A stretch of 64,000 nt of DNA from the NCBI GenBank assembly GCA_938092135.1, contig CALLJL010000001.1, positions 88,506-152,505 of the forward strand. Direction: 5' to 3'. The notes under the pieces are model-generated. The model saw nothing but the letters and a program-made list of their open reading frames with translations. It did no database searches and was not told the DNA's origin. Positions 12,732 to 48,139 of this stretch are shown here, piece after piece. Each line of letters begins with the position of its first letter. Within the stretch, counting starts at the first letter, position 1. The stretch comes from an uncultured bacterium. Lineage in GTDB: Bacteria; Acidobacteriota; Aminicenantia; Aminicenantales; CALLJL01. The translations under genes and the position numbers were made by a program.

Positions 12732-15700
12732 TCAGAAGAGGGGACCAAGGGTGAAGAAAAACACAGTGCGGGGCTCGCCGGCTCTGGGACGCAGATTAAA
12801 CCCTAAGTCGAAGCGAAGGAGCCCCAAAGGAGACCACAATCTCAGGCCGACTCCTGCGCTGTGGCGTAAATGGCTTAATTTTAAATTCTTCACTTCAGGA
12901 AAAACGTTACCGCTGTCATAAAAAATAACGCCATCCACTCCTGGTAGAATAGCCAGCCTCAACTCCTGGTTAGAAATAAAAACAGCCTCGCCGCCCTCAG
13001 GTTGTTTGAGATAAGGATCGTAGGGGCCAACCATATCTTGCTTAAAGCCCCGAATTGAGTAGCCACCACCGGCATAAAAACGCCGGGCTGGCACCATTAC
13101 CTGGTCGAAAGCTGTAGCCAGCCCAAGCCTAAAATTAGAAGCAAATACCAGCCTCGAGCTTAAAGGTTGATAAAAAGAGGCCTGACCGAACCAGCTAAAA
13201 TAGGTCAGCTCTGATTTTAGCTGCTTCGGTGAATAAGTCAGACTGGACGAAAAGAAGCTTCCACGATGGGGGTCGAAGGGGTCATCCCTTAAATCTCGTA
13301 TTGCCTGAAGCGAAAGTTCAGTCAAGCTCAAAGAAATATCAAAGAGAAAAGGCCCTTCCGTCTCTGCCTCGTAAGTATGGATGCTGCTTCGGCGAGCAAC
13401 TAGGGAAAGAAGAATTTTTCCGGGCAGTTTAAACTGTTGCCGCCAGCTTGCTCCCATCTCATCCGTCGTAAACCCAGCCTCTTTTTTTCTTGTTGCATAA
13501 AAAGAAAGCAAGGAGTCAACCTTCAAGCCAAGGAAATTACGGTCGTGAAAAGAGAAACGCCAGTCTTTTAGCCTCTCATTATAGATAAAATTTGTCAAAC
13601 CCTGTCGTCCTAAGCCGAAAAGGTGACGAAAATCAAGTCCAGCCGTAACTTCCGTTTTGGCCTCAGAATCGTAGCGTAACCCGTAACGGAAATTAATCGC
13701 CGGCTCTCGTCTCAGCTCGACGCGCACCTTTTCTAGACCTGGCTCCGTCGTCGGCTCAGTCCTCACCTGAACTAAATTAAAATCGCCAATGTCATAAAGG
13801 GCCTTTTGTCCTTCGGAGATGCGCTCAAAAGTGAGCCTTTCTCCTGGTTTAAGCCCAAAGATTTGGCTTAGCTGACGTCTCTGTTCCTCCTTGGGAGCGT
13901 CAAATTCTACCTCGGCCACGCGATGAATAACTCCTTCTTCAATTGTAAAAATAACTTTTGCTTCCTCGCCGGATTGACTAAATTCAACCCGGCTGGTCAC
14001 CGAAACATCCTGATAGCCATGGCGGCGGTAGAAAGATAAAAGCCTGTTGCGATCAGAAAGAAGAAGTGTCGGGTTAAAAGGCTCGCCTGCTTTCGTTCGT
14101 ACAAGCGACTTGAGCTCGGTAGCCGAGACCGCTTGATTACCCTCAAATTTTACTTCTTCTACAAAACTCTGAGGTCCTTCCTCGACTTCGAGGACGCAAG
14201 TTAATAAACCCATTTCTTTATCTTCTTCTATAGAAACTGCTGCCTTTGCCTCAAGGAACCCCTGTTGTTCATACCAATTGCGAATGGCCTCCATAATCAG
14301 ACGCGGATCAGTAATTAGAAGCCAGAAGCCCTTTGCCTCCTCTCGTCGCCAGGATTTGATCTGTTGCTGAAGCCTTCGAGCTCTTTCCGGGCTTGCGCCC
14401 ACAACTCTTACTTCTTTTATCTGATAACGGTGACCCCTATTCACAATTATAAAATTGGCAATTCTTTTTTCCTCAACTTTTAGCACTGATTTTACGTTAG
14501 CCTGATAGTAACCTTGACCGACAAGATTTTTGGCAACGAGGGCAGAAGCCCCCTTGGCCGCTCGCTCGGGACTTGTCTCCCGGGACCAAAGAGTCTCCAC
14601 CCGGTGCCTCAGCCTTCGGGAAGGAGAATAACCGCAGTATTCAATTTCTATTCTCGGCCCAGCGTTAATCTCAAGGATGATATCGACTTTTCCTTCTGCC
14701 TCGCTGATAATTTGGGGATTAATTTTCGCCTGGAAAAATTGATGCCGGTGATAGAAGGATTCAAGCAGCTTCATTTGCTGGTCGAGAAGACGATGGCTAA
14801 AGGTCTTTCCCGGCTGGAGCGAACGAATTTTTCCCTGGATCAGCTCGCTGGTAAAAAATGGGTCGCCTTTTATTTTTAATGAAGAAATAATTTTGGGAGA
14901 AAAACTTTCGGCGGAAACGCCAGCCGGAGAAACTTTACTCCCCTCCCCCTTTCGTTTTTCGCCTCCAAGAGAAAGACTATGGCGCAAACCCGTACCATAG
15001 CTTCCGTCATCCCGGCGAAAGAGGTTGAGAAGCATCCCGCGGGATAGCCGGTAATCCAAGTTCCAGCTCTGTCGTTGGGAATTGGTGATGTCAACGGAGG
15101 TTACGAGACGGGCAGCTGGTGTTATTTGCTTAACGAGAGTAAGCCGGGCACCAGGGTCAGTTTCGCCAGCAATTCCGAGGGGTTCAATCCTCATTTCCTC
15201 GACGCCAATTATTCTTCGAATCTCGGCACCAAATCTGGAGGCGACTGGCGTGGCCAAAGCAAGGAGTATCTGTTCCCGCAAACCGCTTAATCCTTCTCGT
15301 CTAATCTCTTCAAGGCTTTTCCCCGTTAGCAGTAGAAAAGCAAGTTCTTCTTGGGAGCGAGGGGGTGTTGATTGAAAGCTGAGACGAAGGTTGGAAATCG
15401 GACCATTCAAAAGTAATTTTACTTCAACCTGATCATAACGATGGATAAAATCTGTCTGGGCAATGATCTCGAGCTTCGGGTCAGGAGGAAAGCTTCCGGT
15501 AAAATCAATCTGCATCTTTTCCAGTTGATAGCGTCTTTCGGCCCAAGTAAATTCGCCTGCTGCGGCGTTAACAAGCCTGCCGAGGATTATCGGTTGGGCT
15601 AAATTTCCAGAAATAGTTAGACCGCCCTCAATGGAGGTGCGAAGAAAGGAATTGGTAACTAAAGCAGGTTCAAAAAGATTAATTTTTAAATTAAGGTAAA

Positions 15701-18700
15701 TGTTTTCAAGAAATTGAGGCTCCGGGGTTGGTGAAGGACGGCGAAAGGAAGCTCGTCGCCGCAACCATGGACCTAATGAGTTGATATCGGCTAAAATCGT
15801 CATCCCTTTTGCCGTTATATCACCTGCAAGAAAGAGCCTCCCCCGGTCCGAATTGAGGTCGAGATAAGCATCGAGGGCTGTGGCCATAGTATCTTTAATC
15901 TCTATTGGAAGGTCTTTTATGATTAAATTGATTCCAGTCGATTTTATTTGGCCATCTTGACCAACTTCTAAAAAGCCGCTGATTTCCCAGGGTGCACCGT
16001 TGATCAACCCGCGACAGGAATTGATTTCAAGCTTGTTTCCTGCCAAAAAGAAATATCCCGATCCCTCGCTTAATCGAAGGGGTAAGTCAGTCTTTTCAGC
16101 CGCAAGCTGCCGAAATTCAATTGTCGCCTTAGGCTCAATTTTGGCCAAGGAGCCAGCAAGGCTCAGGCTGATTGTCACGTTTCCCCTGAGGGTAACATCC
16201 TTAAGCCAAGGAGAGAGAGCTTCTAAATCTCCAAAGGCCTGCAATGAGACGTCAAGCTCAGACTGAGCTTGAGGCTGAGAAAAGGGATGCCTTAACTTGG
16301 CCTTGACTTTGAGGCTACCAGATTTGCCGCTAATCTCGACTTTTTTTAAAGTAATAAGGTCTGGTTCAACATTAAATATGATTGGTTCTTTATTGGCCAG
16401 GATTATATGGTCTAAGCTGAGCCTTAAAGTTTCGACTTTTAATTCTGCCTTAAGGCTGGGGCGCCATTGCTTAGGCTCAGGGATAAAACTCACATTAATC
16501 TCGCCGCTCAATTCACCTGATGTTTTGCCCGCAAACTTCTCTTTTAGGGAAGCTGGGATCTTATTGATTTGAACTGGGATAAAATCCCAAGGGTTGAGTT
16601 GGCTGAAAGCAAGGTTGATTTGGGCCTCCCTTGTCCTGCCGTTCGCTCTTAACCCGCTTAGAGGAATTAGGCCACGAGCAACAATCTGGCCGTTTCCCAG
16701 GTTTAAACTCAAGTTGTCGATGGTCAGCATGATTTGGTTAAGTTTTGCCCGCAAATTAATATGCTTAAAAATCAGTTCTTGTCCTGGATAAATGGGCCAA
16801 GCAAGCTGGCCATCGGAAATGATTAGTTCTAAATTAGGTTCTATTTCTGCAAAATGGCTAATATTTCCGCTTACTTGGCCTTGGAAAAGAATCTCACCCC
16901 TTGCGGTTACTTTTTTCAAAGAGTTATCAGAGGGTCTAACCTGGCTAAAAAATTCAACCAAAAGGAGAAAAGGCAAGCGGGCTTCTATCTTAAGTTCTGC
17001 CTTCCTGGATTTAAAACCGAGACCGCCAACGAGGCGAAAGTTTAAATCACGACTTTTCCAGTCAAAACCTCGGATAAGCAGTAAATCATCCTGCAATAGG
17101 AGCTCGAGCGGCTCAGCCGTGGTTATCTCGAAGGAACCAATTCTAAAGCCGGCCGGCCCTGTACCGTTCCCCCCAAAATCAGCTTTTAAATTAAAAAAAG
17201 TCAGACTTCCCATTTTTACAGTAAGGCGTCCAGAAATTCGAACTGCCGGGACCGTTATTAAAGGAAGATAGGGGCGCGCTTGCCCTGAACTTATCAAAGC
17301 TGAAGAGTAAGAGGAACCCGGAAGATATAACGGGGGAGGCAAGAGGGGAGAGAAATTAAAAAATTTGAGGTAATTAATTAGATTATTAGTAAGGTTAGCT
17401 CTATCGCCGCTTCCAAGACCAGGATTATTGTTTTCAGAAAAATAAATGGCGAGGTTTTCTGAAGCGGAATCAATTTTCGAGGCGAAAGAAAATAGGGGAA
17501 AGAAAAAAGAAGGAAGAAAGGTGCAGCCAGGAGCAAAGTAAAAAAGGGAAGGAAAAGAAAAAAAACAAGATGAAGTAGGAGAAAAAGAATAGGAGAAAAT
17601 GGGGACAGAAAAAAAGGGGAAAGAGGTAGACGGTACCAGAGACGGAGCGATTCCTCTCCGCCAAAATTTTATTTCCTTTCCCTCAATTCGATAGGTTAAT
17701 TCATAGTTATCGAGGCTGCCCATAGCCTCAAGTCGAAAGCCAACCTGGCCAATAACAGCAGGAGTAGAAGAAGGAATCAATTCAACCCAGTCGCCGAGCT
17801 CGAGCGAATCAGCCTCGATAGTTATCTTAAAAATTTTACGCTTCCAGTCAAAATTTAGGCTGGCGGATAGAGGTCTTTGACCATCACTTTTTTGAAGTTG
17901 AAGATTCGTTATCTGGACCTTTTCTATGTCCCCTTGGCCTTCGGCTTTAAGCGCGACTACTTCCATTTTTCCGGCCCGGAGCTCCTTTGCCTGGACCCAG
18001 AAATGAGCTGGGCTTTGGTTGACCGGACCAGCGAGCGTTGCTTCCAATTTAATACATCCTCCAAGGGGCAAAAGCCCTTTTTCTCGGAGGAAAGATTGAA
18101 ATTGGGCTGGCAGGATTGATTCCCAATTTTTTATTTCAGCAATGGCGAGCTTCAATTTAAGATTCGATTGAAGACCGAAATCGTGGCTTAAGGGATCTAA
18201 TGTAAAGGAACCGTCAAGATTGACCTCAAATTCAGGCGAAGAAAAGGCAAAATGGGCAAAATTAATTTTCCTTTTTTTAAGGTCAATTTTCGCTTCCAGA
18301 TGGCCATCTGTCCAGAAAGGACCTTGGAGGGCTGAGCCCTCCAGGCTAATTTTCCCTTGAAGTTCCGGCCAGGAAGAACGCTTTCGTTGGCGGTGAAACT
18401 CATTATTGGCGAGATATCCTTTGGTCTCGCTATTCTGTTCATTATTGCCTTTAGGCCAGAGCCCCTTTATATGGCCATCAAGGCGAAGCTTGCCAGCCAC
18501 AGGTTTTCTTTCCATCTGCACCTTTGGCTTTTCGATTTCCTCCAATACTTTAAACGGAAGGAGCATCCTCTTTCTTAATTCGCTCAGGCTTCGGCCAAGG
18601 TTTTCAGTTGTCAGGGTAAATGTCGTGATTAATTCCTGTTTAGGTTTAAACTGGCCAGAGGCAGAAAGACTGATTCCAGCCCAGACTAATGAGAATTGGG

Positions 18701-20072
18701 CTAAGTTAAGCTCTTTGTTTTTATAATTTCCCCTAATTTGACCAGTTAAAAGTTCAATTTGTCCTTTAGAAAAGCTTAATTTTTTATTAGGTTCAGATAA
18801 CTTAAATCTAAAATTAGCTTCGAGCTGGCTAAAATCGGCTTTTCCTGAGACCAAAGGCACCAGTAACTCGATTTGGCCGCAAAGGGGCGCAGCCTCAAGA
18901 TTGGCCAGAGCAAAGTTTGTAGCGTTTATTCGGCCTTGACCAACCCAGCCTTTTTCTGCTTCTTTAAGGCTGAAGGTGAAGTTTATTTTGCCTTCGACTG
19001 AAAATTGCCTGTAAAAGGGATGAGAGAAACTTCCATTTTTTGATTCACTGGCAATGTCTTTGGTTGAATTGGGAAGTTTATAAACCATGCCTGGAGCAGA
19101 CACTAAGGGCGAATTAATGCCTGATGTAAGCTCAAAAGAGGCAACCGAGGGAGGGGTTTTAATTGCTATCTTTTCTTTATTCCAGAAAAAAGGCATTTTT
19201 TCAGCCTGCATTTCTCCCTCGATGATAGCCTGAAAGAGAGAGATTTGAGGTTTAAGCTTTACCCTGGCCTCGGCTTTCAGATTTAGGGCCTCACTCTCGA
19301 CAATAGCCTCAGTCAAAATCACTTCTTTTTCATCAAAACGGAAGAGGAAGCGGGTTGAAGCCACGATAAAGCGAGATTGGCCAGCAAGTTCAACTCTTCC
19401 TTGCCCCGTTGTGATCCATCCGTCATGCTCCATCTTTTTTTCATCAAACTTAAGTCCGACTTCGATGTTATCCAGAAAAATGGATTGAAGCCAAGCAGTC
19501 CTCGAAAAAGATTCTGAAAGGGAAAATCTTCCGGGTTCAATCAGAAGATGGTCAATCCGGAAGGACCAGGGTTTGAATTTCCGGGAAATCTTTTCTTTTA
19601 TTTTGATTGATTCGGGCTTATTTCTTCTTTCTCCCAAAAAATCAAGCCTTCGCCAAGCGAGAGTGGGTTCAATTATTTTAACTTTCTGGAGATGAATTCG
19701 GCGACGCAGTAGCGGCCAGAGGGAAAAATTGATATCCAATTCTTTGGTCGAAAAAAGAGGCTTAGCGGAAGATATAAGGTACTCTTGGTAGCCGCTTTTA
19801 GGAAAAGTTGAAAGGGCAAAAACTCTTATATTCTTTGCTTTTATTTTAAATTGCCATGGATTAAGGCGAAGGAAGTCTGCTTTAATGGTCAATCCGAATT
19901 GCAAGTTGAGACGCTGGTTGAGATGAGAGAGAAGCAAGGCCGAAAAGTGACCACTCTGCAAGTAGATAAGGGCTGCGGCCAGGAAAAAAAGAAGAACAGC
20001 GAGAATGATTCCCCCTTTAAGCCATCGCCGTCGCCACGTCATGGTATTGATCTTAGTTGTTACTTCGTCCAA
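12732..20072 (-). CDS. TamB-TamA fusion: N-terminal TM anchor, TamB/DUF490 repeat domain, POTRA repeats and Omp85 beta-barrel
   Basis: Uninterrupted 2446-aa ORF; N-terminal TM (GGIILAVLLFFLAAALIYL), TamB C-terminal pattern (LAFLLLTGKSLEEIRREGLSGLREQILLALATPVASRFG), POTRA-like repeats, Omp85 FYAGGGYSIRGF motif and terminal LGPLF. Confidence 0.85.
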   Translation of the reverse strand: MDEVTTKINTMTWRRRWLKGGIILAVLLFFLAAALIYLQSGHFSALLLSHLNQRLNLQFGLTIKADFLRLNPWQFKIKAKNIRVFALSTFPKSGYQEYLISSAKPLFSTKELDINFSLWPLLRRRIHLQKVKIIEPTLAWRRLDFLGERRNKPESIKIKEKISRKFKPWSFRIDHLLIEPGRFSLSESFSRTAWLQSIFLDNIEVGLKFDEKKMEHDGWITTGQGRVELAGQSRFIVASTRFLFRFDEKEVILTEAIVESEALNLKAEARVKLKPQISLFQAIIEGEMQAEKMPFFWNKEKIAIKTPPSVASFELTSGINSPLVSAPGMVYKLPNSTKDIASESKNGSFSHPFYRQFSVEGKINFTFSLKEAEKGWVGQGRINATNFALANLEAAPLCGQIELLVPLVSGKADFSQLEANFRFKLSEPNKKLSFSKGQIELLTGQIRGNYKNKELNLAQFSLVWAGISLSASGQFKPKQELITTFTLTTENLGRSLSELRKRMLLPFKVLEEIEKPKVQMERKPVAGKLRLDGHIKGLWPKGNNEQNSETKGYLANNEFHRQRKRSSWPELQGKISLEGSALQGPFWTDGHLEAKIDLKKRKINFAHFAFSSPEFEVNLDGSFTLDPLSHDFGLQSNLKLKLAIAEIKNWESILPAQFQSFLREKGLLPLGGCIKLEATLAGPVNQSPAHFWVQAKELRAGKMEVVALKAEGQGDIEKVQITNLQLQKSDGQRPLSASLNFDWKRKIFKITIEADSLELGDWVELIPSSTPAVIGQVGFRLEAMGSLDNYELTYRIEGKEIKFWRRGIAPSLVPSTSFPFFSVPIFSYSFSPTSSCFFSFPSLFYFAPGCTFLPSFFFPLFSFASKIDSASENLAIYFSENNNPGLGSGDRANLTNNLINYLKFFNFSPLLPPPLYLPGSSYSSALISSGQARPYLPLITVPAVRISGRLTVKMGSLTFFNLKADFGGNGTGPAGFRIGSFEITTAEPLELLLQDDLLLIRGFDWKSRDLNFRLVGGLGFKSRKAELKIEARLPFLLLVEFFSQVRPSDNSLKKVTARGEILFQGQVSGNISHFAEIEPNLELIISDGQLAWPIYPGQELIFKHINLRAKLNQIMLTIDNLSLNLGNGQIVARGLIPLSGLRANGRTREAQINLAFSQLNPWDFIPVQINKIPASLKEKFAGKTSGELSGEINVSFIPEPKQWRPSLKAELKVETLRLSLDHIILANKEPIIFNVEPDLITLKKVEISGKSGSLKVKAKLRHPFSQPQAQSELDVSLQAFGDLEALSPWLKDVTLRGNVTISLSLAGSLAKIEPKATIEFRQLAAEKTDLPLRLSEGSGYFFLAGNKLEINSCRGLINGAPWEISGFLEVGQDGQIKSTGINLIIKDLPIEIKDTMATALDAYLDLNSDRGRLFLAGDITAKGMTILADINSLGPWLRRRASFRRPSPTPEPQFLENIYLNLKINLFEPALVTNSFLRTSIEGGLTISGNLAQPIILGRLVNAAAGEFTWAERRYQLEKMQIDFTGSFPPDPKLEIIAQTDFIHRYDQVEVKLLLNGPISNLRLSFQSTPPRSQEELAFLLLTGKSLEEIRREGLSGLREQILLALATPVASRFGAEIRRIIGVEEMRIEPLGIAGETDPGARLTLVKQITPAARLVTSVDITNSQRQSWNLDYRLSRGMLLNLFRRDDGSYGTGLRHSLSLGGEKRKGEGSKVSPAGVSAESFSPKIISSLKIKGDPFFTSELIQGKIRSLQPGKTFSHRLLDQQMKLLESFYHRHQFFQAKINPQIISEAEGKVDIILEINAGPRIEIEYCGYSPSRRLRHRVETLWSRETSPERAAKGASALVAKNLVGQGYYQANVKSVLKVEEKRIANFIIVNRGHRYQIKEVRVVGASPERARRLQQQIKSWRREEAKGFWLLITDPRLIMEAIRNWYEQQGFLEAKAAVSIEEDKEMGLLTCVLEVEEGPQSFVEEVKFEGNQAVSATELKSLVRTKAGEPFNPTLLLSDRNRLLSFYRRHGYQDVSVTSRVEFSQSGEEAKVIFTIEEGVIHRVAEVEFDAPKEEQRRQLSQIFGLKPGERLTFERISEGQKALYDIGDFNLVQVRTEPTTEPGLEKVRVELRREPAINFRYGLRYDSEAKTEVTAGLDFRHLFGLGRQGLTNFIYNERLKDWRFSFHDRNFLGLKVDSLLSFYATRKKEAGFTTDEMGASWRQQFKLPGKILLSLVARRSSIHTYEAETEGPFLFDISLSLTELSLQAIRDLRDDPFDPHRGSFFSSSLTYSPKQLKSELTYFSWFGQASFYQPLSSRLVFASNFRLGLATAFDQVMVPARRFYAGGGYSIRGFKQDMVGPYDPYLKQPEGGEAVFISNQELRLAILPGVDGVIFYDSGNVFPEVKNLKLSHLRHSAGVGLRLWSPLGLLRFDLGFNLRPRAGEPRTVFFFTLGPLF
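17470..17645 (+). repeat. Polypurine/polypyrimidine-biased low-complexity tract within the fusion ORF
   Basis: Long A/G-dominated run on + strand encoding FFS/FPSLFYF-rich segment on minus strand. Confidence 0.75.
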
Positions 20073-20481: not shown

Positions 20482-20632
20482 GAACTACTCCATAGCTAAT
20501 GATTATGCCATTTAAAAATTCGTTCGAAAGCACCTATTAAGTTTCTATTTTAAAGAGTAAAAATTTGACAATAAATACAGAAATAAATATGGAAAAAATG
20601 GAAAGGGCTAATTTTTGGCGAAGGAGGCCAAA

Positions 20633-21568
20633 ATGAGGACAAAAGAGGCATCCCAATTTTTAATTTTTTTAGGCATATTTTTAATAGTTGGCCCATCTTT
20701 TGCCCAGAAGGATGTCGAAGGAAGCAAAGATCATCCAATCATTTCAAGATATCCAGGTTCATATATATATTTTTATGATCAAAAAGAGTTTGATGAATTT
20801 GAAATTCTTTTGGGACCTGAAAAGATATTTCAAGGAGATGATTATGTTAAAAAAGCAAAAAAGGAGAGGACTGAAGGGAAAGTTACAAGAATTGGATACC
20901 AAGCACCAAAAAACAGAAGTGTCTTTGAGGTTTTTAAAAACTATGAAGAAGCTGTTAAAAAAGCCAACTTTGATCTACTTTATTCAGCCAGTGGAAAGGA
21001 TTTTTCCATCTCTGACTTTCTTAATCATTATTTCCGCCTTCGAGCTGGATGGAGTGAGGATAAAAGTTTCTACCTATCTGCAAGAAATAAATCAGGTAAT
21101 GTGATGATTTCGATTTGTGTTTTACCGGGGTGGGATGGTCCAGTTGCCCTTGTAGGCATTGTTGAAAAAAAAGAAATGGAAATGGGGCTTATCAAAGCCA
21201 AGGACATATATGAAAAAATAAAAAGTGAAGGCAAAGTTGCCATTTATGGAATATACTTTGATTTTGATAAAGCAGAAATCAAACCAGAATCGAAGCCGGC
21301 TTTCGAAGAGATAGCCGCTTTTTTAAAAGCACATCCTGAAATAAAGTTATACATTGTGGGGCATACTGATAATATAGGAAGACTTGAATATAATTTTGAA
21401 CTTTCAAAGAGGAGGGCAGAAGCGGTTATGAAAGAATTGGTAGAAAAATATGGAATTAGTGGCGACAGGCTTAAGGCTTTCGGCGTTGGCCCTCTTGCAC
21501 CTGTTGCCTCTAACTCTACAGAAGAAGGAAGAGCAAAAAACAGGAGAGTTGAACTTGTAGAGCAGTGA
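20633..21568 (+). CDS. OmpA-family protein (C-terminal peptidoglycan-binding domain)
   Basis: RBS aaggagg then ATG; C-terminal IYFDFDKAEIKPES...IVGHTDNIGRLEYNFELSKRRAEAV...NRRVEL. Confidence 0.85.
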   Translation: MRTKEASQFLIFLGIFLIVGPSFAQKDVEGSKDHPIISRYPGSYIYFYDQKEFDEFEILLGPEKIFQGDDYVKKAKKERTEGKVTRIGYQAPKNRSVFEVFKNYEEAVKKANFDLLYSASGKDFSISDFLNHYFRLRAGWSEDKSFYLSARNKSGNVMISICVLPGWDGPVALVGIVEKKEMEMGLIKAKDIYEKIKSEGKVAIYGIYFDFDKAEIKPESKPAFEEIAAFLKAHPEIKLYIVGHTDNIGRLEYNFELSKRRAEAVMKELVEKYGISGDRLKAFGVGPLAPVASNSTEEGRAKNRRVELVEQ

Positions 21569-24930: not shown

Positions 24931-25347
24931 ATGAAGCGGTTTTTGCCCGGAGGTTTGACCAGGAAGGCACCGTCTCTTGGCGATTTAGAAATGAGAGTCA
25001 TGGAAGTTCTTTGGGAATATGGTCGCCTGAGCGGTCGAGAAGTTCATCAAAAAATCGCGGCCACCTGTCCGATTGCGCTAACTACTATTTTGACCATCCT
25101 TAACCGATTAGCCAAGAAAGGTTTAGTTAATAAAGAGATGGGCGAAAAAATTTATTTTTTCCGGGCCACTCTGTCACGCGAGCAATGGCAAACAATTGTT
25201 GGCCGAGAGCTTCTTCTTCAGGCCTTGAAAATTTCTCCTCAGACAGTTTTTTCCACCTTTGCCGATATCCTTACCTCACTGCCCTCTGAAGAATTCATGG
25301 AATTAATCGCCAGAATCCAAAGAAAAAGAGATGAGAAAAAACCTTAG
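24931..25347 (+). CDS. BlaI/MecI/CopY family transcriptional regulator
   Basis: LGDLEMRVMEVLWEYGRLSGREVHQKI...LTTILTILNRLAKKGLVNKEMGEKIYFFRATLSREQ. Confidence 0.9.
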   Translation: MKRFLPGGLTRKAPSLGDLEMRVMEVLWEYGRLSGREVHQKIAATCPIALTTILTILNRLAKKGLVNKEMGEKIYFFRATLSREQWQTIVGRELLLQALKISPQTVFSTFADILTSLPSEEFMELIARIQRKRDEKKP

Positions 25348-26287
25348 TTTCGGCCTTAACAACCCTCAAGTTAGCTTTTTAAGGTTTTTATCTTCCGCCT
25401 ATTTATTCCTTTTCGGGAGCGGTCTTATTTTTATTTTGGTCAACATGGCTTTAACAATTCCTTTTCCTTCTCTTTTTAAAGTTTTAAGGAGTTGGCCCAT
25501 TTTTAAATGTTCCTGGCAATGCCTGGGCAGAACGATGACAGTATTTATTCTGGATGGCGGCTTCCGGACAATGGCCTTTCTTTTTCTATTTATTATCTTC
25601 CTGCGCGCCTTCGCCAGGCTAATCCATAGACTGAAAGAAACATTGGCCTTTCAAAAAAACCTAAAATCAACTGCTGTGGCTCGAAGCCGATGGGGCGTCG
25701 AGTTTTTTGTTTTTCCCTTTAATTTCCCTTTGGCTTTAACGACTGACTGGATGAAACCAAAGATTTTTCTTTCTACCTCGCTCGTCGAATCTCTTACTCA
25801 GGAAGAATTAAAGACGGTCTTATTCCATGAAGCTTTTCACCAGAAAAGACGGGACCCCCTGAGAAATCTTTTCATTTCTTTTCTTGTTGACCTCCTTGTC
25901 TTTATTCCCTTCACGAAAAAAATGTTTCAAATTCTGGGAACAACAACAGAATTGCAGGCTGATTTTTACAGTCTGGCGAAAGGTCAAGAAATAACTTCTC
26001 TTATCACCTCCTTACAAAAAATCCATAACTATAAAATTTCTCCTGAACTAAATCTTTCTCATTATTCAGCCACTCGTTCCAATGATTTAGATAGACTGCG
26101 TTATTTCGGCCAGGGAAAGCTAAAACTGGAAATTACAAAGGCCCGGCTTTTTATCTCAGCGGCCGTGGTTATTCTGCTTTTTTTTCTGGCCTTCCTTGGT
26201 TCTGGGCCAGGCAGAGAAAAAGTTATTCTGGAACATCAATCATCCTGTGCCATCCATTCTATCGTTAATGAGGAGTTTAAGCGGTGA
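25331..26287 (+). CDS. M56 family (BlaR1-like) membrane metallopeptidase
   Basis: HEAFHQKRRDPLRN zinc motif within TM segments; paired with BlaI-like gene. Confidence 0.85.
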   Translation: MRKNLSFGLNNPQVSFLRFLSSAYLFLFGSGLIFILVNMALTIPFPSLFKVLRSWPIFKCSWQCLGRTMTVFILDGGFRTMAFLFLFIIFLRAFARLIHRLKETLAFQKNLKSTAVARSRWGVEFFVFPFNFPLALTTDWMKPKIFLSTSLVESLTQEELKTVLFHEAFHQKRRDPLRNLFISFLVDLLVFIPFTKKMFQILGTTTELQADFYSLAKGQEITSLITSLQKIHNYKISPELNLSHYSATRSNDLDRLRYFGQGKLKLEITKARLFISAAVVILLFFLAFLGSGPGREKVILEHQSSCAIHSIVNEEFKR

Positions 26288-27567
26288 ATAAAAATAAAAC
26301 CGGTTTTTTTCCTTTGGTCTTTCTTTTCTTTCTTTTTTATTTGCCTCCAGCTGCTCCTGCCGAGCAAGATAAACTGAACTTGACCGAGCTTCTGCAGCTG
26401 GCGAAGGAAAGAAACCCCGGACTCCTTTCGCTTCAAGAGGAAATTAAGGCGTATCAATTTCGCGTTGAACCTCAGGCCACTCTTCCTGATCCCGTTTTGG
26501 CTTTCAGCTTAAGAAATATCGCCGCGACTCAATTTACCGTTGGCCAGGAAATGATGAGCGGGGTGGGATTCTCTGTTTCCCAGATGATCCCCTTTCCGGG
26601 AAAACTCAGATTAAAGAAAGAGATGGCCAAAATTCAGGTTCAGCGGGCCAAACGAATAAGTGATGGATATACTTTAGCTTTATTCCGCCAACTAAAAGAA
26701 CTCTACGCTAAGCTTTTTTATTTTCAAAAAAGCCTAAGAGTTCTGGAAAAGAAAAAGCTTTTTCTGGAAAAGGCGCTGGAAGCCGCTAGTATCCGCTACT
26801 CTGTCGGCGAAGGAGTGCAAACTGACGTTTTAAAAGCCAGGCTTGAAATTGCCGAACTCGACCAAATGATCAAGCCTATGGAGCAAATGCTCCGTGCCGT
26901 CGAGGGTCAAATCAATTCTTTACTTGCTTTTCCTATGGAAAAGCGATGGGGGGAGGCAGAGGAGATCCCTGTTTTTGAGCTAAATATTCCCCTTGGGCAA
27001 TTAATCGCCGCGGCAATCGAGAAATCGCCTAAACTTAAGGAAGCTGAGTTAATGATTGAAGAACAGGAGCTTGAGGTCAGGCTGAGCCGTCGAGAATTCC
27101 TTCCCAATTTTATGATCCAGGTTGGCAAGGAATTCAAGGGCCCTTTTAAAGATATGTATGAAGTTATGATCGGCGTAGAGATTCCTCTTTTTATAAAAAA
27201 GAAACAGGCTAATCTCCTTGAAGCGTCTTTAGCAGAGCTAAGCCAAGCCCGTTATTCCTTTGCTTCTATGGAAAATGAGCTTTTGGCGATGGTTAACGAA
27301 AATTATCTTCTGGCCAAGAGCGCTGAAAACCTCATCAAGATCACCCGAAACAGCTTGCTTCCCCAGGCTTCCTTAACCTTGGAATCTTCCCTGGCTAATT
27401 ATCAGGTGGGAAAAGTGGATTTTCTTACTTTTCTTGCTGATATCGACGCTCTTTTTTCTTACGAAATGGACTACTATCGGCAGCTGAGTGAATTATGGCA
27501 GGCCGTCTCCAGGATTGAAGAATTAACCGGTCTTAATCTTTTGAGTGAGGTGAAAAATGAAAATTAA
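26284..27567 (+). CDS. TolC/CusC-family outer membrane efflux protein
   Basis: GTGA overlap; LTELLQLAKERNPGLLSLQEEIKA, repeated coiled-coil; followed by CusB/CusA homologs. Confidence 0.85.
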   Translation: MNKNKTGFFPLVFLFFLFYLPPAAPAEQDKLNLTELLQLAKERNPGLLSLQEEIKAYQFRVEPQATLPDPVLAFSLRNIAATQFTVGQEMMSGVGFSVSQMIPFPGKLRLKKEMAKIQVQRAKRISDGYTLALFRQLKELYAKLFYFQKSLRVLEKKKLFLEKALEAASIRYSVGEGVQTDVLKARLEIAELDQMIKPMEQMLRAVEGQINSLLAFPMEKRWGEAEEIPVFELNIPLGQLIAAAIEKSPKLKEAELMIEEQELEVRLSRREFLPNFMIQVGKEFKGPFKDMYEVMIGVEIPLFIKKKQANLLEASLAELSQARYSFASMENELLAMVNENYLLAKSAENLIKITRNSLLPQASLTLESSLANYQVGKVDFLTFLADIDALFSYEMDYYRQLSELWQAVSRIEELTGLNLLSEVKNEN

Positions 27568-29209
27568 CAAAGCCAAAATTATCTCCAGCAGAATAAATAA
27601 AAAGATAAATAATCAATGTAATTTTTCTTTAGAGCCTAAATTTTCTCAGCCTCGAAGAAACAAGGCTGAGAAAAGTAGTTCGGGTTTGAAGCTTTCTTTT
27701 TTAGGAAAGGCTAAAGCGCTCAAAAAGAATTCGCCCTTTTTAATTATTCAAATTATTTTAATAATTCTCGTTGTCTCCTTCTCGTTCACTAACTGCCGAC
27801 GAAATTCTGGGTCAAAACTTTCTTCCTCCCCCGCCATGACGGGTAAAACTCAACCTGAACTAGCCGGCGAACAGAAAAAGACAACCTATCATTGCCCGAT
27901 GCATCCCAACTATATTTCTGATAAGCCTGGCGAATGTCCCATTTGCGGGATGACCCTTGTTCCTGTGGAAAAGGAGAAAACAAAAGGAACGATGGCTCGA
28001 GCCGAAGGGGCCATTGAAATCAGCCCGGAAAAACAGCAACTCATCGGCATCACTTTCGGTCAAGTGGACCGCCGTGAGCTTCATCTTTTAATTTCAGCCT
28101 ATGCCCGATTTACCTATGATGAGACCCGCTTGGCATCGATAACCACTAAGTTCTCGGGCTGGGTGGAAGAGCTCTTTGTTGATTATACAGGAAAGCTGGT
28201 CAGGCGGGGCGAACCCCTCTTTTCCATTTTTAGTCCAGAACTTATTGCGGCCCAGGAAGAATACCTGCTTGCTCTCCGGGCTGAAAAAACCTTTGGGTCT
28301 AATAAAAGCGGAAGCGTTTCATCCAATCCGGAAGGACGCCAAGAAAATGGGGAAGAAGGGAGCCAATCCAGGGCTTCTGATTCGACGGTCAACTTAAATA
28401 ATGTTCAAGGCGCTTTATCTAGCAGGCCTGGGTTAAAAGAGCCAGTTCAAAATATAGGCGATCTGGCCGCAGCGGCTAAGAGAAGACTTCTTCTCTGGGA
28501 CATAACCGAAGAACAGATTAGAAAGCTCGAAGAGGAGGGCCGTTCTTTTCGAACCTTAACCATCTTTTCCCCCGTATCAGGGTTTATCATTGAAAAAAAT
28601 GTGGTTCAAGGGAAATTTGTCATGGCCGGCGAGACTTTATTATCCATTGCTGACCTTTCACGAATTTGGCTTCTGGCCGACGTGTATGAGAAGGACCTTT
28701 CTTTTATAGCTGTCAACAAAGAAGTAGAAGTGGAAATCACTTCCTTTCCAGGAGAGCGCTTTCGCGGCCGGGTAAGTTATATTTTCCCCTTTCTTGAAAA
28801 AGAGAGTCGTACGGTCAAGGTCAGGATGGAATTTCCCAATCCGGACTACAGACTTAAACCAGAAATGTATGGTCGAGTCAAAATACATCTTAGGTTGGGT
28901 AACAGGCTATCGATTCCGGCCGAAGCCGTGATTGATACCGGGGAAAGAAAGGTCGTTTTCGTGGCCAACGGGACAGGTCATTTTGAACCCCGCGAAGTCA
29001 ACGTGGGACTCAAAGCAGGTGATTTTTATGAAGTTCTGGATGGCCTGGAGGAAGGGGAGAGGGTAGTGACTTCAGCTCAATTCTTAGTTGATTCCGAAAG
29101 CCGTCTTAAAGCGGCCATTAAAGGTTGGCATCTCCATCCCTCGGAGAAAAAGCCAGAAACAGAGGAAAAGCAAAAATTAGCTCCTCCGCCCAAACATATT
29201 CACCAATAA
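27557..29209 (+). CDS. cusB: CusB-like RND periplasmic adaptor with N-terminal heavy-metal-binding domain
   Basis: HCPMHPNYISDKPGECPICGMTLVPVE domain; adaptor barrel-sandwich and beta-barrel motifs. Confidence 0.9.
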   Translation: MKINKAKIISSRINKKINNQCNFSLEPKFSQPRRNKAEKSSSGLKLSFLGKAKALKKNSPFLIIQIILIILVVSFSFTNCRRNSGSKLSSSPAMTGKTQPELAGEQKKTTYHCPMHPNYISDKPGECPICGMTLVPVEKEKTKGTMARAEGAIEISPEKQQLIGITFGQVDRRELHLLISAYARFTYDETRLASITTKFSGWVEELFVDYTGKLVRRGEPLFSIFSPELIAAQEEYLLALRAEKTFGSNKSGSVSSNPEGRQENGEEGSQSRASDSTVNLNNVQGALSSRPGLKEPVQNIGDLAAAAKRRLLLWDITEEQIRKLEEEGRSFRTLTIFSPVSGFIIEKNVVQGKFVMAGETLLSIADLSRIWLLADVYEKDLSFIAVNKEVEVEITSFPGERFRGRVSYIFPFLEKESRTVKVRMEFPNPDYRLKPEMYGRVKIHLRLGNRLSIPAEAVIDTGERKVVFVANGTGHFEPREVNVGLKAGDFYEVLDGLEEGERVVTSAQFLVDSESRLKAAIKGWHLHPSEKKPETEEKQKLAPPPKHIHQ

Positions 29210-29232
29210 ATTTGGGACCCAAAGGATAAACC

Positions 29233-32200
29233 ATGGTTGAAAAGATTATTGAATGGTCAGCTCAAAATAGATTCTTTATTTTTATTGGCGTTGCGGTGGC
29301 GATCCTCGTCTCTATTTGGAGCCTCCAACGGGTGCCCCTCGATGCTATTCCCGATCTTTCGGACACGCAGGTAATTATTCTGGCGCGCTGGGACAGGCCG
29401 CCGGATATCATCGAGGACCAGGTGACTTATCCGATTGTTACCGCCCTGCTCGGAGCTCCTAAGGTTAGAGATATTCGCGGTTTTTCCGATTATGGCTATT
29501 CCTACGTTTATATCATTTTTGAGGACGGAACTGATGTTTACTGGGCTCGTTCCCGTGTGCTTGAGTACTTGAGCAAAGTAACCCCTTTACTTCCCCAAGG
29601 AGTCAAGGTGGAACTTGGACCGGATGCCACCGGAATTGGCTGGGTCTTCCAATATGCCCTTGTTGATCGCACCGGTCAGCACTCGCTTGAAAAGCTGCGG
29701 TCCTTTCAGGATTGGCATTTGAGGTATTTGCTTCAATCTGTGAAGGGAGTGGCTGAGGTGGCCACAGTTGGCGGATTTGTCCGCCAGTACCAGGTCATCA
29801 TCAACCCCGAAGCTCTCTTGGCCTACGGAATTGGGGTGAAGGATGTGGTCATGGCGCTTCGCCTGGCGAACAACGATGTCGGAGCGAGGCTAATTGAAAT
29901 TTCCGGTCGCGAATATATGGTCACGGGGAGGGGTTATGTTAAATCTAAGGAAGACATTGAACAAATTGGGTTAAAACATGACGAGGGAGGTATCCCCATA
30001 AGAATAAAAGATGTGGCTCGCGTCGACCTCGGACCGGATATTCGCCGTGGAGTAGCCGAGCTCGATGGCGAAGGTGAAGTCGTTGGCGGCATTGTCATCA
30101 TGCGCTATGGGGAGAATGCCCTCGAGGTGATAAAAAGAGTGAAAGAAAGGCTGGAAACAGTGGAGCTTCCGGCTGGCGTTGAACTTGTCACCACCTATGA
30201 CCGTTCTGACCTTATCCTTCGGTCAATTAATACGTTGAAAACCAAGCTCATCGAGGAAATGCTTATCGTCGCCCTGGTCATCTTTGTTTTTCTGTGGCAC
30301 TGGAGATCTGCTCTTGTTCCCGTTGTCACCCTGCCTCTGGCGGTGCTTCTTTCTTTTATTCCGATGTATTACTTACGGATTACCTCTAATATCATGTCGC
30401 TCGGCGGAATTGCTATTGCTATCGGTGCCATGGTGGATGCCACCATCGTCCTGGTGGAAAACACCCATAAGCGACTCGAGAGGTTCGCTGGCGGGGGCAA
30501 GCGAAAGCGGGAAGAGGTTATCATTCAAGCCACCAAAGAGGTTGGCCGGCCGATATTTTTTAGCCTGCTGGTGATTGCCGTTGCTTTCCTGCCCATTTTT
30601 ACCTTAGAAGCCTATGAGGGTCGCCTTTTCAAACCCCTGGCCTATACCAAAAACCTGGCCATGTTGTTTGCGGCCTTAGTGGCGATTACGGTAGCTCCGG
30701 CCTTGATCATCCTTCTTGTCAGGGGAAAAATTCACTCCGAAGAAAAACATCCGGTCAGTCGTTTTCTTTTTCGCCTTTACGAGCCGGCGGTTCACTTCAT
30801 CTTAAAAAAACCCTGGTGGGTTGTAATGGCTGCCCTTATTTTGATCTTGAGCATCCTTCCTGTTGCCCGCAAACTCGGCTCGGAGTTCATGCCGCCATTG
30901 AACGAAGGTTCAATTCTTTATATGCCCACGACATTACCTGGAATTTCGGTCACTGAGGCCAGCCGGCTGCTTCAGATTCAGGATAGGATTTTTCGGCAAT
31001 TTCCGGAAGTGGAACGGGTATTCGGAAAGGCGGGCCGGGCTGAAACGGCGACCGACCCGGCGCCATTTTCCATGATGGAAACGACAATTTTACTTAAACC
31101 CCAGAATGAATGGCGCAAAAAGGAGCGATGGTATTCAGGAAAAATTCCTGAGTTTTTACAAGGGCCTTTTAGAATTTTCTGGCCTGACCGGATTTCCTGG
31201 GAAGAATTGATTTACGGCGAGGGGGGACTTGACCAGGCCCTTCGTCTTCCAGGCGTGGTTAATGCTTGGACGATGCCCATCAAGGCGCGAATTGATATGT
31301 TGACGACAGGTGTGCGCACCCCTGTGGGGATAAAAATCTATGGAGATGACCTCAATAAATTGGAAGAAATTGGCGTTCAGATTGAACAGCTGCTGGCTGA
31401 AGTGCCTGGAACAAAAAGCGTCTATGCCGAGAGGGCGGCTCAGGGCTATTTCCTGGATATTAGGATAAAAAGGGATGAAATCTCCCGTTATGGGCTGAAC
31501 ATCGAAGATGTCCAGATGGAGCTGATGGCCGCTGTGGGCGGCGAGAATATTACCCAGACCATTGAGGGACGGGAACGATATCCCATCAATGTGCGCTATC
31601 CAAGAGAGTTGCGGGAGGATTTAGATAAATTAAAAGGAGTTTATCTTTCCACTCCCATGGGCACTCAAATTCCTTTAGCCCAGCTGGCCGATTTAGAGCT
31701 TAAACTAGGTCCAGGCATGATCCGGGACGAAAACGGGCGTCTTTCAAGTTATGTTTATATTGACGTTGCTGGTAGGGATATCGGGGGTTATGTTAAGGAG
31801 GTCAAGTCGCTTTTAAAAGAAAAACTGGCGCTTCCCTCGGGTTACTCATTGCAGTATTCAGGCCAGTATGAGTACATGGAGAGGGTCAAAAAAAGGATGC
31901 TTTTCGTTGTGCCCTTGACTATTTTTATCATCCTGATTCTTCTTTATCTTAACACGCGTTCCTTCGCCCAAACGATGATTGTTCTTTTGGCTGTGCCCTT
32001 TTCTCTAATTGGGGCTTTCTGGTTCCTTTATTTACTGGGCTACAACATGAGCATTGGCGTCTGGGCGGGGATAATTGCCCTATTGGGAGTTGATGCCGAA
32101 ACGGGAATTATTATGCTCCTTTACCTTGATCTGGCCTATAAAGAAAGAAAAGAGAAGGGACTTCTGCGGAATTTGAACGATCTAAAAGAGGCTATTATTC

Positions 32201-32466
32201 ACGGAGCTGTAAAGAGGGTAAGGCCAAAGATGATGACCGTGGGCACAACTTTCATGGGTCTTTTGCCGATCATGTGGTCACAGGCTCATGAAACCGGTGC
32301 TGACGTGATGAAAAGGATTGCCGCGCCGATGGTGGGCGGTATTTTTACGTCCTTCGTTATGGAACTTTTGGTCTACCCGGCGATATTTCTGCTCTGGAAA
32401 TGGCATAGCGAGGTAAAAAAATCAACCCAGGAAAGGGATCAAGCTGCCATGTCCGAGCCTGAATGA
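29233..32466 (+). CDS. cusA: CusA/CzcA-family heavy metal efflux RND transporter
   Basis: 1077 aa; RVPLDAIPDLSDTQVII, GAMVDATIVLVENTHKRLE, GVDAETGIIMLLYLDLAY. Confidence 0.95.
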   Translation: MVEKIIEWSAQNRFFIFIGVAVAILVSIWSLQRVPLDAIPDLSDTQVIILARWDRPPDIIEDQVTYPIVTALLGAPKVRDIRGFSDYGYSYVYIIFEDGTDVYWARSRVLEYLSKVTPLLPQGVKVELGPDATGIGWVFQYALVDRTGQHSLEKLRSFQDWHLRYLLQSVKGVAEVATVGGFVRQYQVIINPEALLAYGIGVKDVVMALRLANNDVGARLIEISGREYMVTGRGYVKSKEDIEQIGLKHDEGGIPIRIKDVARVDLGPDIRRGVAELDGEGEVVGGIVIMRYGENALEVIKRVKERLETVELPAGVELVTTYDRSDLILRSINTLKTKLIEEMLIVALVIFVFLWHWRSALVPVVTLPLAVLLSFIPMYYLRITSNIMSLGGIAIAIGAMVDATIVLVENTHKRLERFAGGGKRKREEVIIQATKEVGRPIFFSLLVIAVAFLPIFTLEAYEGRLFKPLAYTKNLAMLFAALVAITVAPALIILLVRGKIHSEEKHPVSRFLFRLYEPAVHFILKKPWWVVMAALILILSILPVARKLGSEFMPPLNEGSILYMPTTLPGISVTEASRLLQIQDRIFRQFPEVERVFGKAGRAETATDPAPFSMMETTILLKPQNEWRKKERWYSGKIPEFLQGPFRIFWPDRISWEELIYGEGGLDQALRLPGVVNAWTMPIKARIDMLTTGVRTPVGIKIYGDDLNKLEEIGVQIEQLLAEVPGTKSVYAERAAQGYFLDIRIKRDEISRYGLNIEDVQMELMAAVGGENITQTIEGRERYPINVRYPRELREDLDKLKGVYLSTPMGTQIPLAQLADLELKLGPGMIRDENGRLSSYVYIDVAGRDIGGYVKEVKSLLKEKLALPSGYSLQYSGQYEYMERVKKRMLFVVPLTIFIILILLYLNTRSFAQTMIVLLAVPFSLIGAFWFLYLLGYNMSIGVWAGIIALLGVDAETGIIMLLYLDLAYKERKEKGLLRNLNDLKEAIIHGAVKRVRPKMMTVGTTFMGLLPIMWSQAHETGADVMKRIAAPMVGGIFTSFVMELLVYPAIFLLWKWHSEVKKSTQERDQAAMSEPE

Positions 32467-32664
32467 TTGGCTTAAATGATTTTAGCGCCCTGAAGGGCAA
32501 AGGACGGAAGAAAAGAGGAGAAAGGATAGAATGAGAAAAAGGAGAAAACATAATGAGTTAAATTTAAACAGGAGTTCTGGCCCAAGCCGGCTTTTAACCC
32601 AAGTTGAATTAGGCCAGAAAATAAAGGAGAAACAAATGCAGGAAAAAAATAAAAAGGAGGCAAT

Positions 32665-33267
32665 ATGAAAAAAGAAAGGTTTATGGCTTTAGGTCTTCTG
32701 GTGGCCATCGTTATTTTTCTGGGTGTTTTTGCTTTAGCTGAAGAAGTCCGCGACCCGGTTTGTGGCATGAAGCTTGACCCGGCTAAAGCTAAATTCAGTA
32801 CAGAATATATGGGCAAAAAGTATTATTTCTGCTCAGCTGATTGTCAGGCTGAATTCAAGAAAAATCCAGGAAAATATGTTCCTTCCATGGAGCCGTCAGC
32901 CGACCTCGGAGCTGTTTGTTGTTCTCTTTCCAAGGAAATGATGGCCGAGGTTAAATTAGAAAAAAAAGAAACACCGGACGGCTTAGAGATTACGATGACT
33001 TCAACTAAATCGGAAGTGGTTAAGAAGTTACAAGAGACTTTGGGGGAATGCCATCAGGAAATGATAGTGGCTGAACATGGTGAGCCCTGCCAGAAAAAAC
33101 AAATGATGGAAAAACAAGCTCATGGGGAGCATATGGCTCAGCATCAGCACGCCACCAGTGAAACTGGAACCAAGGCCACCTGTTGTTTGATGCATGATAA
33201 AAATTATGAGGTTAAATTGATTAACCTGAATAATGGCGTTCGATTGGAATTAAAGAAAAAGAGCTGA
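32665..33267 (+). CDS. Exported YHS-domain metal-binding protein with His/Cys-rich C-terminus
   Basis: VRDPVCGMKLDPAKAKFSTEYMGKKYYFCSADCQAEFKKNPGKY; later HGEHMAQHQHA and CC motifs. Confidence 0.85.
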   Translation: MKKERFMALGLLVAIVIFLGVFALAEEVRDPVCGMKLDPAKAKFSTEYMGKKYYFCSADCQAEFKKNPGKYVPSMEPSADLGAVCCSLSKEMMAEVKLEKKETPDGLEITMTSTKSEVVKKLQETLGECHQEMIVAEHGEPCQKKQMMEKQAHGEHMAQHQHATSETGTKATCCLMHDKNYEVKLINLNNGVRLELKKKS

Positions 33268-33388
33268 ACTTATCGTCGGGTTAAGTAAGAAAAAATAATT
33301 GACTAACAAAGGCAAAAATTAACTCACCCATAAAGCTATTTCTTTATGATTTTGTTCCATTGACAGCTTCTTATTTTTGGTTATTATG

Positions 33389-33406
33389 TATGCTCAATAG
33401 CGCATA
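33389..33406. promoter_or_regulatory. Imperfect inverted repeat TATGCTCAA-TAGCGCATA, candidate ArsR-family operator
   Basis: 7/9 paired positions, 10 bp upstream of the ArsR-family start codon. Confidence 0.45.
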
Positions 33407-33415
33407 GGAGAATAT

Positions 33416-33850
33416 ATGATTGAAAAATACTCCCTCATATTCAAGGCTCTTTCCGATAAGACAAGATTAAGAATAATCCATTTGCTCCTTTGGGCTGGAC
33501 TAAATCTTTGCGTTTGCGAAATTGTCGATTCTCTCGGCGAGTCCCAGTATAACGTTTCCAAACACCTGAAAGAGCTAAAGTATGCTGATTTAATCGAGGA
33601 AAAGAAAATGGGTAAATGGGTTAGTTATGGCCTGAAATCTTCTCCTGATGATTTTAAGAAAAAAATTTTTGAAGCTATAGCTTCAATGCCTGATGAGGTA
33701 ACCACTAAAGACAAAATAAGACTTGAAGCCAGGCTTGGTCTGAGAAAGGAAGGAAAGTGTGTCATTGGATTTAAAAGTGAACAATGGGCTGCTGTCCTTA
33801 AGAAAATCACTAAAATAGAGGAGACTGACCATGTTCAGAAAACCGACTAA
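33416..33850 (+). CDS. ArsR-family transcriptional regulator
   Basis: LSDKTRLRIIHLLLWAGLNLCVCEIVDSLGESQYNVSKHLKELKYADLIEEKKMGKWVSY. Confidence 0.9.
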   Translation: MIEKYSLIFKALSDKTRLRIIHLLLWAGLNLCVCEIVDSLGESQYNVSKHLKELKYADLIEEKKMGKWVSYGLKSSPDDFKKKIFEAIASMPDEVTTKDKIRLEARLGLRKEGKCVIGFKSEQWAAVLKKITKIEETDHVQKTD

Positions 33851-35138
33851 GAAAGAGCTATTTTATCTGCTCCTTATCTTTGTCTTCTATTTCGGTGCTT
33901 TAGTCTATGTTTATCAACATGATCTTTCCTTTGGAGCCCTTTTTAAATATGGTTTACTGCAGGCGAAAGGAATTCAGGCAGATGAAGCCAGAGTTTCCGA
34001 TATTGATACCCCCCTTTCCTGGAATATCCTCCAAGTTCTCTGGTTTATTTTTCTCAAAGGCGCGGCCGTTTTGGTCGAGTTATTTCAATACTGGGTAGTG
34101 GGCATGCTTATAGCCGCCTGCCTTGTCGTTTTTGTGCCATGGCAGAAGGTTAGAGAAAAGATGGGCTATGGCGGACTTGCGGCTAATTTTATTGCGGCCA
34201 CCGCTGGCGCAATTATCCCCATTTGTTCCTGCGGAATCGTGCCTGTCCTAGCCGGAATGGTCGAGGCTGGGATTCCCTTGGGGCCGACTATGGCCTTTCT
34301 TATCGCTGCTCCGATGCTGAATGTCCCTGCCGTTTTTATTACAGCGGGTGTTTTAGGATGGAAGCTGGCGATCGGGAGAATCCTTGGCACTTTTTTTATT
34401 GCTCTCCTCGTCGGTGGCGTTATTACCCGATGGCAGAGAAGGCAACGCTTTTTGAGGCGGTTCATAAAGCTAAGTATTACTCCCCGCCTGCCGGCTGAAC
34501 TTCAAAAATTTGCCTTTAAAGTGGGGATGGCTCTTTCGAAAAACCCCAAAGGACTTCCCACTGAAAGGCTTGCTCCTGGAGAAGAAGAAAAGCTTTTTCT
34601 CCTAGCCGAAGCCGGTATTATTGACCGCAATAGGGAAGGCCTCTGGTATCTTCCCGCAGTCAGCGAAGTCTCGACCAATGCTTCGGCGGCTTGCTTTGTT
34701 TTGCCCACGGGTGATCAGCGGCTTTCCTTTTTCCAGGGAATAAAAAGGATGCTCCAGACAGCCTGGGATTTTTTTCTTCAACTCAATTATTACCTAATTC
34801 TCGCCGTTATCATTGCCGGGGCGATAAAAGTAATAATTCCCACTAAGGTTGTGATAAGCCTCGTTGGTGGCGAAAAGCTCAATTCGGTCCTAGTTTCCTC
34901 TTTTATCGCCGTCCTTGCTTATGTCTGCACCTATGTTGAAGTGCCTACAGCCCTCGCTTTGATTCAAAAAGGCATGGGGGGAGGGGCGACTCTGGCTTAT
35001 CTCCTTGGTGGGCCAGGATTATCTCTTCCCTCGATTGCTATGCTTTCCGGAGTTTTTAAGGCTAGAATCCTGGCTTTATATGTGGGAATAAGTTTTATCG
35101 GCTGTGTTATAGCCGGTTATATCTTTAATCTTTTGTAG
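33831..35138 (+). CDS. DUF318/ArsP/SO_0444-like permease
   Basis: 435 aa multi-TM; PICSCGIVPVLAGMVEAGIPLGPTMAFLIAAPMLNVPA. Confidence 0.85.
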   Translation: MFRKPTKKELFYLLLIFVFYFGALVYVYQHDLSFGALFKYGLLQAKGIQADEARVSDIDTPLSWNILQVLWFIFLKGAAVLVELFQYWVVGMLIAACLVVFVPWQKVREKMGYGGLAANFIAATAGAIIPICSCGIVPVLAGMVEAGIPLGPTMAFLIAAPMLNVPAVFITAGVLGWKLAIGRILGTFFIALLVGGVITRWQRRQRFLRRFIKLSITPRLPAELQKFAFKVGMALSKNPKGLPTERLAPGEEEKLFLLAEAGIIDRNREGLWYLPAVSEVSTNASAACFVLPTGDQRLSFFQGIKRMLQTAWDFFLQLNYYLILAVIIAGAIKVIIPTKVVISLVGGEKLNSVLVSSFIAVLAYVCTYVEVPTALALIQKGMGGGATLAYLLGGPGLSLPSIAMLSGVFKARILALYVGISFIGCVIAGYIFNLL

Positions 35139-47542: not shown

Positions 47543-47546
47543 GGAG

Positions 47547-48125: not shown

Positions 48126-48139
48126 AAAGGGTTATTGCT

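Follow-up and report, generated by a model that had tools for sequence, protein, structure and literature searches.

A single open reading frame in the window, the 64,000-nucleotide stretch of acidobacterial DNA analysed here, encodes what is probably a natural single-chain translocation and assembly module (TAM), in which a TamB and an Omp85 barrel form one covalent bridge from the inner to the outer membrane that would act in lipid traffic or in the assembly of outer-membrane proteins (OMPs). The frame occupies positions 12732-20072 of the minus strand and is open throughout its 2446 aa, in agreement with a preliminary description of this DNA that had reported an uninterrupted ORF without giving its strand. 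ORF reading of the window places the start at a TTG codon; an ATG at residue 11 is a possible true start.

Pfam scans placed TamB (DUF490) PF04357 at residues 1380-1682 (15027-15935; this and all further features of the fusion lie on the minus strand) with 94.7 bits against a gathering cut-off of 22.4, and Omp85 PF01103 at residues 2151-2443 with 120.5 bits against a cut-off of 24, so that the two families that the preliminary description had read in one ORF are indeed both present. POTRA PF07244 scored 112.5 bits (cut-off 21.3), and DUF748 at the N-terminus stayed under its cut-off. The proposed N-terminal inner-membrane anchor was likewise recovered: a hydropathy scan revealed one hydrophobic segment in the whole protein, at residues ~15-48 (19929-20030), and AlphaFold2 predicts a helix at residues 6-39. 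This signal anchor is followed by a TamB/AsmA-like beta-taco groove at residues ~60-1573 (15354-19895), predicted as strands nearly throughout, and by a complete C-terminal domain of TamB, made up of helices and six strands, at residues ~1574-1702 (14967-15353), as judged from AlphaFold2 and from alignment with split TamBs. Then come a disordered interdomain linker of 24 residues (1703-1726; 14895-14966), seen by AlphaFold2, hydropathy and alignment, five POTRA domains at residues ~1727-2122 (13707-14894; AlphaFold2 and Pfam POTRA stretches), and a 16-strand Omp85 barrel at residues ~2126-2446 (12735-13697; PF01103, Foldseek and AlphaFold2) with the FYAGGGYSIRGF motif and a terminal Phe. A disordered Phe/Ser/Pro-rich insert at residues ~803-974 (17151-17666; pLDDT ~30) interrupts the predicted taco and is mostly missing from the alignment in the same-genus relative L049; its coding strand is pyrimidine-rich.

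Residues 1247-2446 were modelled with AlphaFold2 using 37 homologues (mean pLDDT 78), and the model contains taco strands, the TamB C-terminal domain (model residues 328-456), the linker (pLDDT ~33), the five POTRAs and the 16-strand barrel. The model of the N-terminal 1200 residues is of lower quality (pLDDT 63), with the anchor helix and beta strands throughout; in a fold search this model matched ApoB100 (E 1.5e-6) and a Vps13 N-terminal fragment (prob 1.00, E 1.3e-3), both lipid-groove proteins. Of the continuous groove joined to a barrel for which a structure model had been proposed as a check, the modules thus stand, but continuity from groove to barrel is putative, because the relative placement of the domains is of low confidence (pTM 0.54 and 0.41 for the models).

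Profile rescans of fetched loci recovered both domains, with the same one-frame architecture, in 84 distinct ORFs, whose named hosts are all Acidobacteriota, bar a few labelled just 'bacterium'. The search of relatives suggested in the preliminary description was thus rewarded, and its impression that the architecture might be uncommon gives way to a form that is common in Acidobacteriota; a fusion unique to this genome is ruled out by these relatives across the phylum. In a whole-protein search of forty order relatives, the split pair was present in all, whole or in part, and roughly twelve of them had a fusion frame or a fragment of one. At the level of the class, matches at E<=1e-90 came from 31 of 142 genomes, including a congener whose match ends at a contig end and another that is a barrel-only fragment, and 396 phylum genomes yielded many further families with single frames of 1900-2450 aa spanning both halves. 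A pattern-based GTDB scan of limited sensitivity gave 171 relatives, and the best 80 of them included no fusion outside Acidobacteriota; viral contigs scanned with the C-terminal half gave no relatives. With dN/dS of 0.07-0.33, both halves are under purifying selection, and the linker is less constrained.

In a tree built from concatenated TamB C-terminal and POTRA/barrel sequence, a branch with an SH-aLRT of 99.7 sets 35 main-lineage fusions apart from the split pairs. Two fusions of family f35 (L080 and L081) retain a POTRA region of ~650 aa and fall among the split pairs; when TamB and Omp85 are placed in trees of their own, these two have the appearance of a fusion that arose independently. 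A second, independent fusion event in f35 is possible; on the concatenated data, a single clade of all fusions was not rejected (p-AU 0.49). In genome G440, a second Omp85 ORF (L097:4982-7702) begins with a TamB C-terminal-domain tail and contains masked bases, and is a broken or partly masked second fusion.

The genome of the window (2.84 Mb, 33 contigs) also encodes a split pair, a tamB of 1131 aa and, 4 bp after it, a tamA-like gene of 912 aa; genes resembling a SurA-type protein and fabD follow. The fusion is therefore a second TamB system here, and in this genome it may be redundant or specialised. A further separate Omp85 of 770-777 aa is probably the true BamA. The tamB-tamA order of split pairs in Aminicenantales is the opposite of that in Terriglobia/Acidiferrales-type records (L166, L168, L172, L176, L179, L184 and L185), in which the Omp85 gene comes before tamB. 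In a PF04357 survey of 58 genomes, every Aminicenantales fusion genome keeps a split pair alongside, and in some genomes a split TamB accompanies two fusions. In 19 of the 58 there is no TamB other than the fusion, and 16 of these are at least 95% complete; in one such genome (98% complete), an 887-aa BamA-like protein and the fusion are the only Omp85 proteins.

A gene for a TPR protein of ~200-230 aa with a signal-peptide-like N-terminus adjoins the fusion in 37 of 50 informative named-genome loci (for example L039:12790-13431, L045:15613-16281, L127:3984-4682 and L129:4131-4748), lying upstream on the same strand in 14 (gaps of 1-76 bp) and downstream in convergent orientation in 23. That this neighbour is kept in two arrangements argues for a functional link with the fusion, and the TPR protein may be a dedicated periplasmic helper and a candidate new component. 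The obvious analogy would be BamD, a TPR protein that binds the POTRAs of BamA. No TPR gene was found beside the window's fusion, and no TPR ortholog in its own genome, where the best match is a 313-aa TPR protein (133 bits) that resembles TPR proteins in other genomes. The deep branch with L074, L082 and L094 has no TPR neighbour either. In the same-genus genome G001, the TPR ortholog (L186:8753-9422) lies on a different contig from the fusion and adjoins genes resembling a type III CRISPR cluster. As to the surroundings in the window itself, a divergent gene upstream of the fusion (20615-21568) encodes DUF4892 and an OmpA domain. The region 24931-35138 reads as a likely metal-resistance block, with probable BlaI/BlaR1-type regulators, a TolC-type protein, CusB/CusA-like RND efflux, an ArsR-type regulator and a permease, and 45047-48745 likely encodes a molybdopterin oxidoreductase, a ferredoxin-type subunit and a TorD-like chaperone; ahead of these lie a porin-like gene and a cytochrome-like one.

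The split pair that accompanies the fusion throughout the surveyed Aminicenantales, the genomes with two fusions and a split TamB, and the dedicated TPR gene beside many fusions would all suit a specialised paralogue, devoted with its TPR helper to a particular OMP or surface-protein substrate while the split TAM does the general work. However, where the fusion is the sole TamB, it must carry the general role at least in those 19 genomes, and no substrate gene consistently adjoins the fusion in the surveyed loci. We therefore regard specialisation as an unlikely account of the family.

A single-chain TAM that remains in one piece is better supported by the junction. The position of ~14950 given in the preliminary description falls inside the predicted disordered linker, and the joining point was also correctly placed directly after the TamB C-terminus: the split TamBs of the phylum end in a terminal Phe (26 of 36; most others in F-K), and in the alignment the fusions run through this Phe position and then continue in frame. 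The distance from the TamB end to the first POTRA is 27-41 residues (median 30) in 37 diverse fusions, in which the linker sequence is unconserved, rich in Gly/Ala/Pro/Lys and free of Cys. In the window's fusion, the junction is without a hydrophobic segment or signal peptide, the best 19-residue mean hydropathy at residues 1690-1770 being 0.62. Beyond the linker, the POTRA arm is shortened. The split acidobacterial partners have seven POTRAs, six in one case (Pfam, permissive threshold), and the fused proteins five; Pfam POTRA stretches at E<=10 number 4 in the window's fusion and 5 in L039. The median distance from TamB to barrel is 453 aa in the fused proteins, as against 658 aa from start to barrel in the split ones, and this corresponds to five versus seven POTRAs. 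On its sequence, the fusion thus reads as a TamB joined to an Omp85 protein with fewer POTRAs and without a signal peptide of its own, from which we infer that the covalent tether may replace docking on the distal POTRAs.

A linker that is disordered, exposed and unconserved in sequence also resembles a protease-accessible spacer, and in this same genome a split TAM works without a covalent link, as would be expected if the fusion were a polyprotein, made as one chain and cut in the linker by a periplasmic protease to yield an ordinary two-subunit TAM. We nevertheless consider such processing rather improbable. The linkers of the 37 fusions and a hydropathy scan revealed no conserved cleavage motif, no Cys or lipobox and no signal-peptidase-like hydrophobic segment, the narrow length range of a linker whose sequence drifts is easier to explain by a working tether, and the reduction in POTRA number suggests an architecture adapted to covalent linkage.

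The single chain does not correspond in all respects to the proteins after which its halves are named. The preliminary description had called the barrel half TamA, a name that does not hold in the strict sense: the 16-strand Omp85 barrel (PF01103, AlphaFold2) agrees with TamA, but the model has five POTRAs instead of three, and the score against the NCBIfam TamA equivalog NF047950 is 103.8 bits, far below the cut-off of 625. The best NCBIfam match is the BamA model TIGR03303, at 257.5 bits again below its cut-off (297.15), and the five POTRAs and barrel are those of a BamA, as seen in the AlphaFold2 model and a whole-length Foldseek match. Both curated cut-offs being missed, canonical TamA and canonical BamA are ruled out, and by its scores the barrel half appears as a TamA/BamA intermediate, nearer to BamA. 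In Foldseek, the BamA match (E 3e-41) took in all of the POTRA-barrel part, and the TamA matches three POTRAs and the barrel (8us1, TMt 0.73, the highest). The TamB half scored 40 bits against the NCBIfam TamB equivalog NF047952 (cut-off 825); the split TamB of the same genome gave no match to this model at E<=0.01, and the model therefore fails to cover acidobacterial TamB. The fusion further departs from TamB in that the last TamB strand is not a free C-terminus, the linker, POTRAs and barrel coming after it, and from the two-protein TamAB in that the halves are not separate polypeptides.

Five POTRAs, a BamA model as the best NCBIfam match (under its cut-off) and BamA as the best structural matches are also what one would expect of a BAM variant, in which the Omp85 half would serve chiefly as an insertase of BamA type and TamB as a scaffold. 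The precedent would be the hybrid of Borrelia burgdorferi, where TamB binds POTRA2-3 of BamA (PMC11361582) and has been modelled to complete the BamA barrel (PMC13382580). Yet this genome has the separate 770-777-aa Omp85, taken as BamA, and it is the TamB-operon partners, not this protein, with which the fusion barrels cluster in the Omp85 tree, in which the one outgroup row has a long branch. We accordingly give a BAM variant little credence. Finally, a missed stop or frameshift between two genes, the caveat raised in the preliminary description, has a negligible chance of being correct: a single lost stop could join genes that, like the split tamB and tamA, lie 4 bp apart, but relatives carry the same single frame in independent assemblies, including single-contig genomes, which rules out an assembly or missed-stop artefact, and the fused and split lineages are distinct, the fused one having no second signal peptide and two fewer POTRAs.

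The probable single-chain TAM can be set beside several known systems. In E. coli TamAB, the TamB C-terminal domain consists of helices and six strands, lipid-like density fills the groove, TamB is bound by the POTRAs, and its last strand is able to pair with strand 1 of the barrel (PMC12800296). The fusion shares with TamAB the anchored taco, the C-terminal domain, the POTRA-bearing Omp85 barrel and a 1:1 ratio of TamB to barrel; it differs in being one covalent chain, in having five POTRAs and not three, in that its last TamB strand is internal and followed by a linker, and in a barrel that scores under the TamA cut-off. Like the Borrelia BamA-TamB hybrid (PMC11361582, PMC13382580), it combines TamB with a five-POTRA BamA-type partner, and in Borrelia there is DUF490-POTRA contact; there, however, two proteins are involved and the partner is the general BamA, whereas Acidobacteriota also have a separate BamA-type Omp85. 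An acidobacterial TamB and a second, BamA-like Omp85 with seven POTRAs are described by Heinz et al. (2015; PMC4494059), whose main text makes no mention of a fusion. This split form comes from the same phylum and has the same Omp85 partner family, its genes adjoining each other, but in the fused lineage the POTRAs number five and a second signal peptide is absent.

For bridging both membranes with one lipid-traffic polypeptide there is a precedent in an unrelated protein, the elongated MlaD of Veillonella parvula, which has an inner-membrane anchor and an outer-membrane barrel in one polypeptide and which, on the basis of modelling and fractionation, has been put forward as a lipid bridge across the envelope (PMC10665443). 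The fusion, known from sequence and models, has the same combination of anchor and outer-membrane barrel in one chain. MlaD, in contrast, belongs to the MCE family, is 419 aa long, is modelled as a hexamer with a ten-strand barrel, is unrelated to TamB and Omp85, and has a function opposed to that of TamB (PMC10665443). With the AsmA-like/VPS13-type bridge proteins YhdP, TamB and YdbH, the fusion shares the anchor, a long predicted taco and the fold match to Vps13 and ApoB100, but where these proteins terminate in the periplasm or rely on docking to a partner, the fusion ends in its own outer-membrane barrel. The preliminary description had left it to be checked whether the architecture was already described; in open-access text, including that of PMC4494059, PMC4104836 and later TAM work, we found no natural fusion of TamB with TamA or BamA.

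Since the same modules are present in one chain, the simplest mechanism would be that of the same machine as TamAB, with a fixed 1:1 stoichiometry and a permanent connection from the inner to the outer membrane. The whole chain would be exported by Sec in one piece, its N-terminal helix would stay in the inner membrane and its C-terminal barrel would be inserted by BAM, giving a putative topology in both membranes. The ~1500-residue taco would provide a hydrophobic groove that carries phospholipids and/or guides OMP assembly toward the lateral gate, and lipid transport along a continuous lipid or OMP conduit may be the outcome. The short tether would keep the TamB C-terminal domain at the POTRA arm, a job that docking on the longer seven-POTRA arm may do in the split acidobacterial form. 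Although internal, the terminal strand of the TamB part may still pair with barrel strand 1. A broader proposition, which seems to us quite conceivable though short of probable, is that such proteins form a separate and self-sufficient class of trans-envelope machine, ancient in Acidobacteriota, in which one polypeptide combines an inner-membrane protein, a lipid-transfer groove and an Omp85 barrel, with a TPR helper in one branch; it would fully replace the two-protein TAM in many species, and covalent tethering would have taken over the role of the first two POTRAs.

It is debated whether TamB and its barrel are obliged to act as a 1:1 unit, and also whether lipids pass from TamB straight to the outer membrane. 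A fusion that has persisted through phylum-level divergence, and that some genomes have as their sole TamB, speaks on evolutionary grounds for an obligate unit; encoded by a single gene and fixed in stoichiometry, it also lends itself to structure and transport assays. The fusion further bears on the hybrid-barrel model of TamAB: here the terminal strand of TamB has no free end and is tethered within the reach of a short linker from POTRA1, so that contact with the barrel seam would require bending of the POTRA arm or movement of the TamB domain. The conservation of the fused form across the phylum, often as the sole TamB, suggests that this machine, made of two proteins elsewhere, can work as a single chain too.
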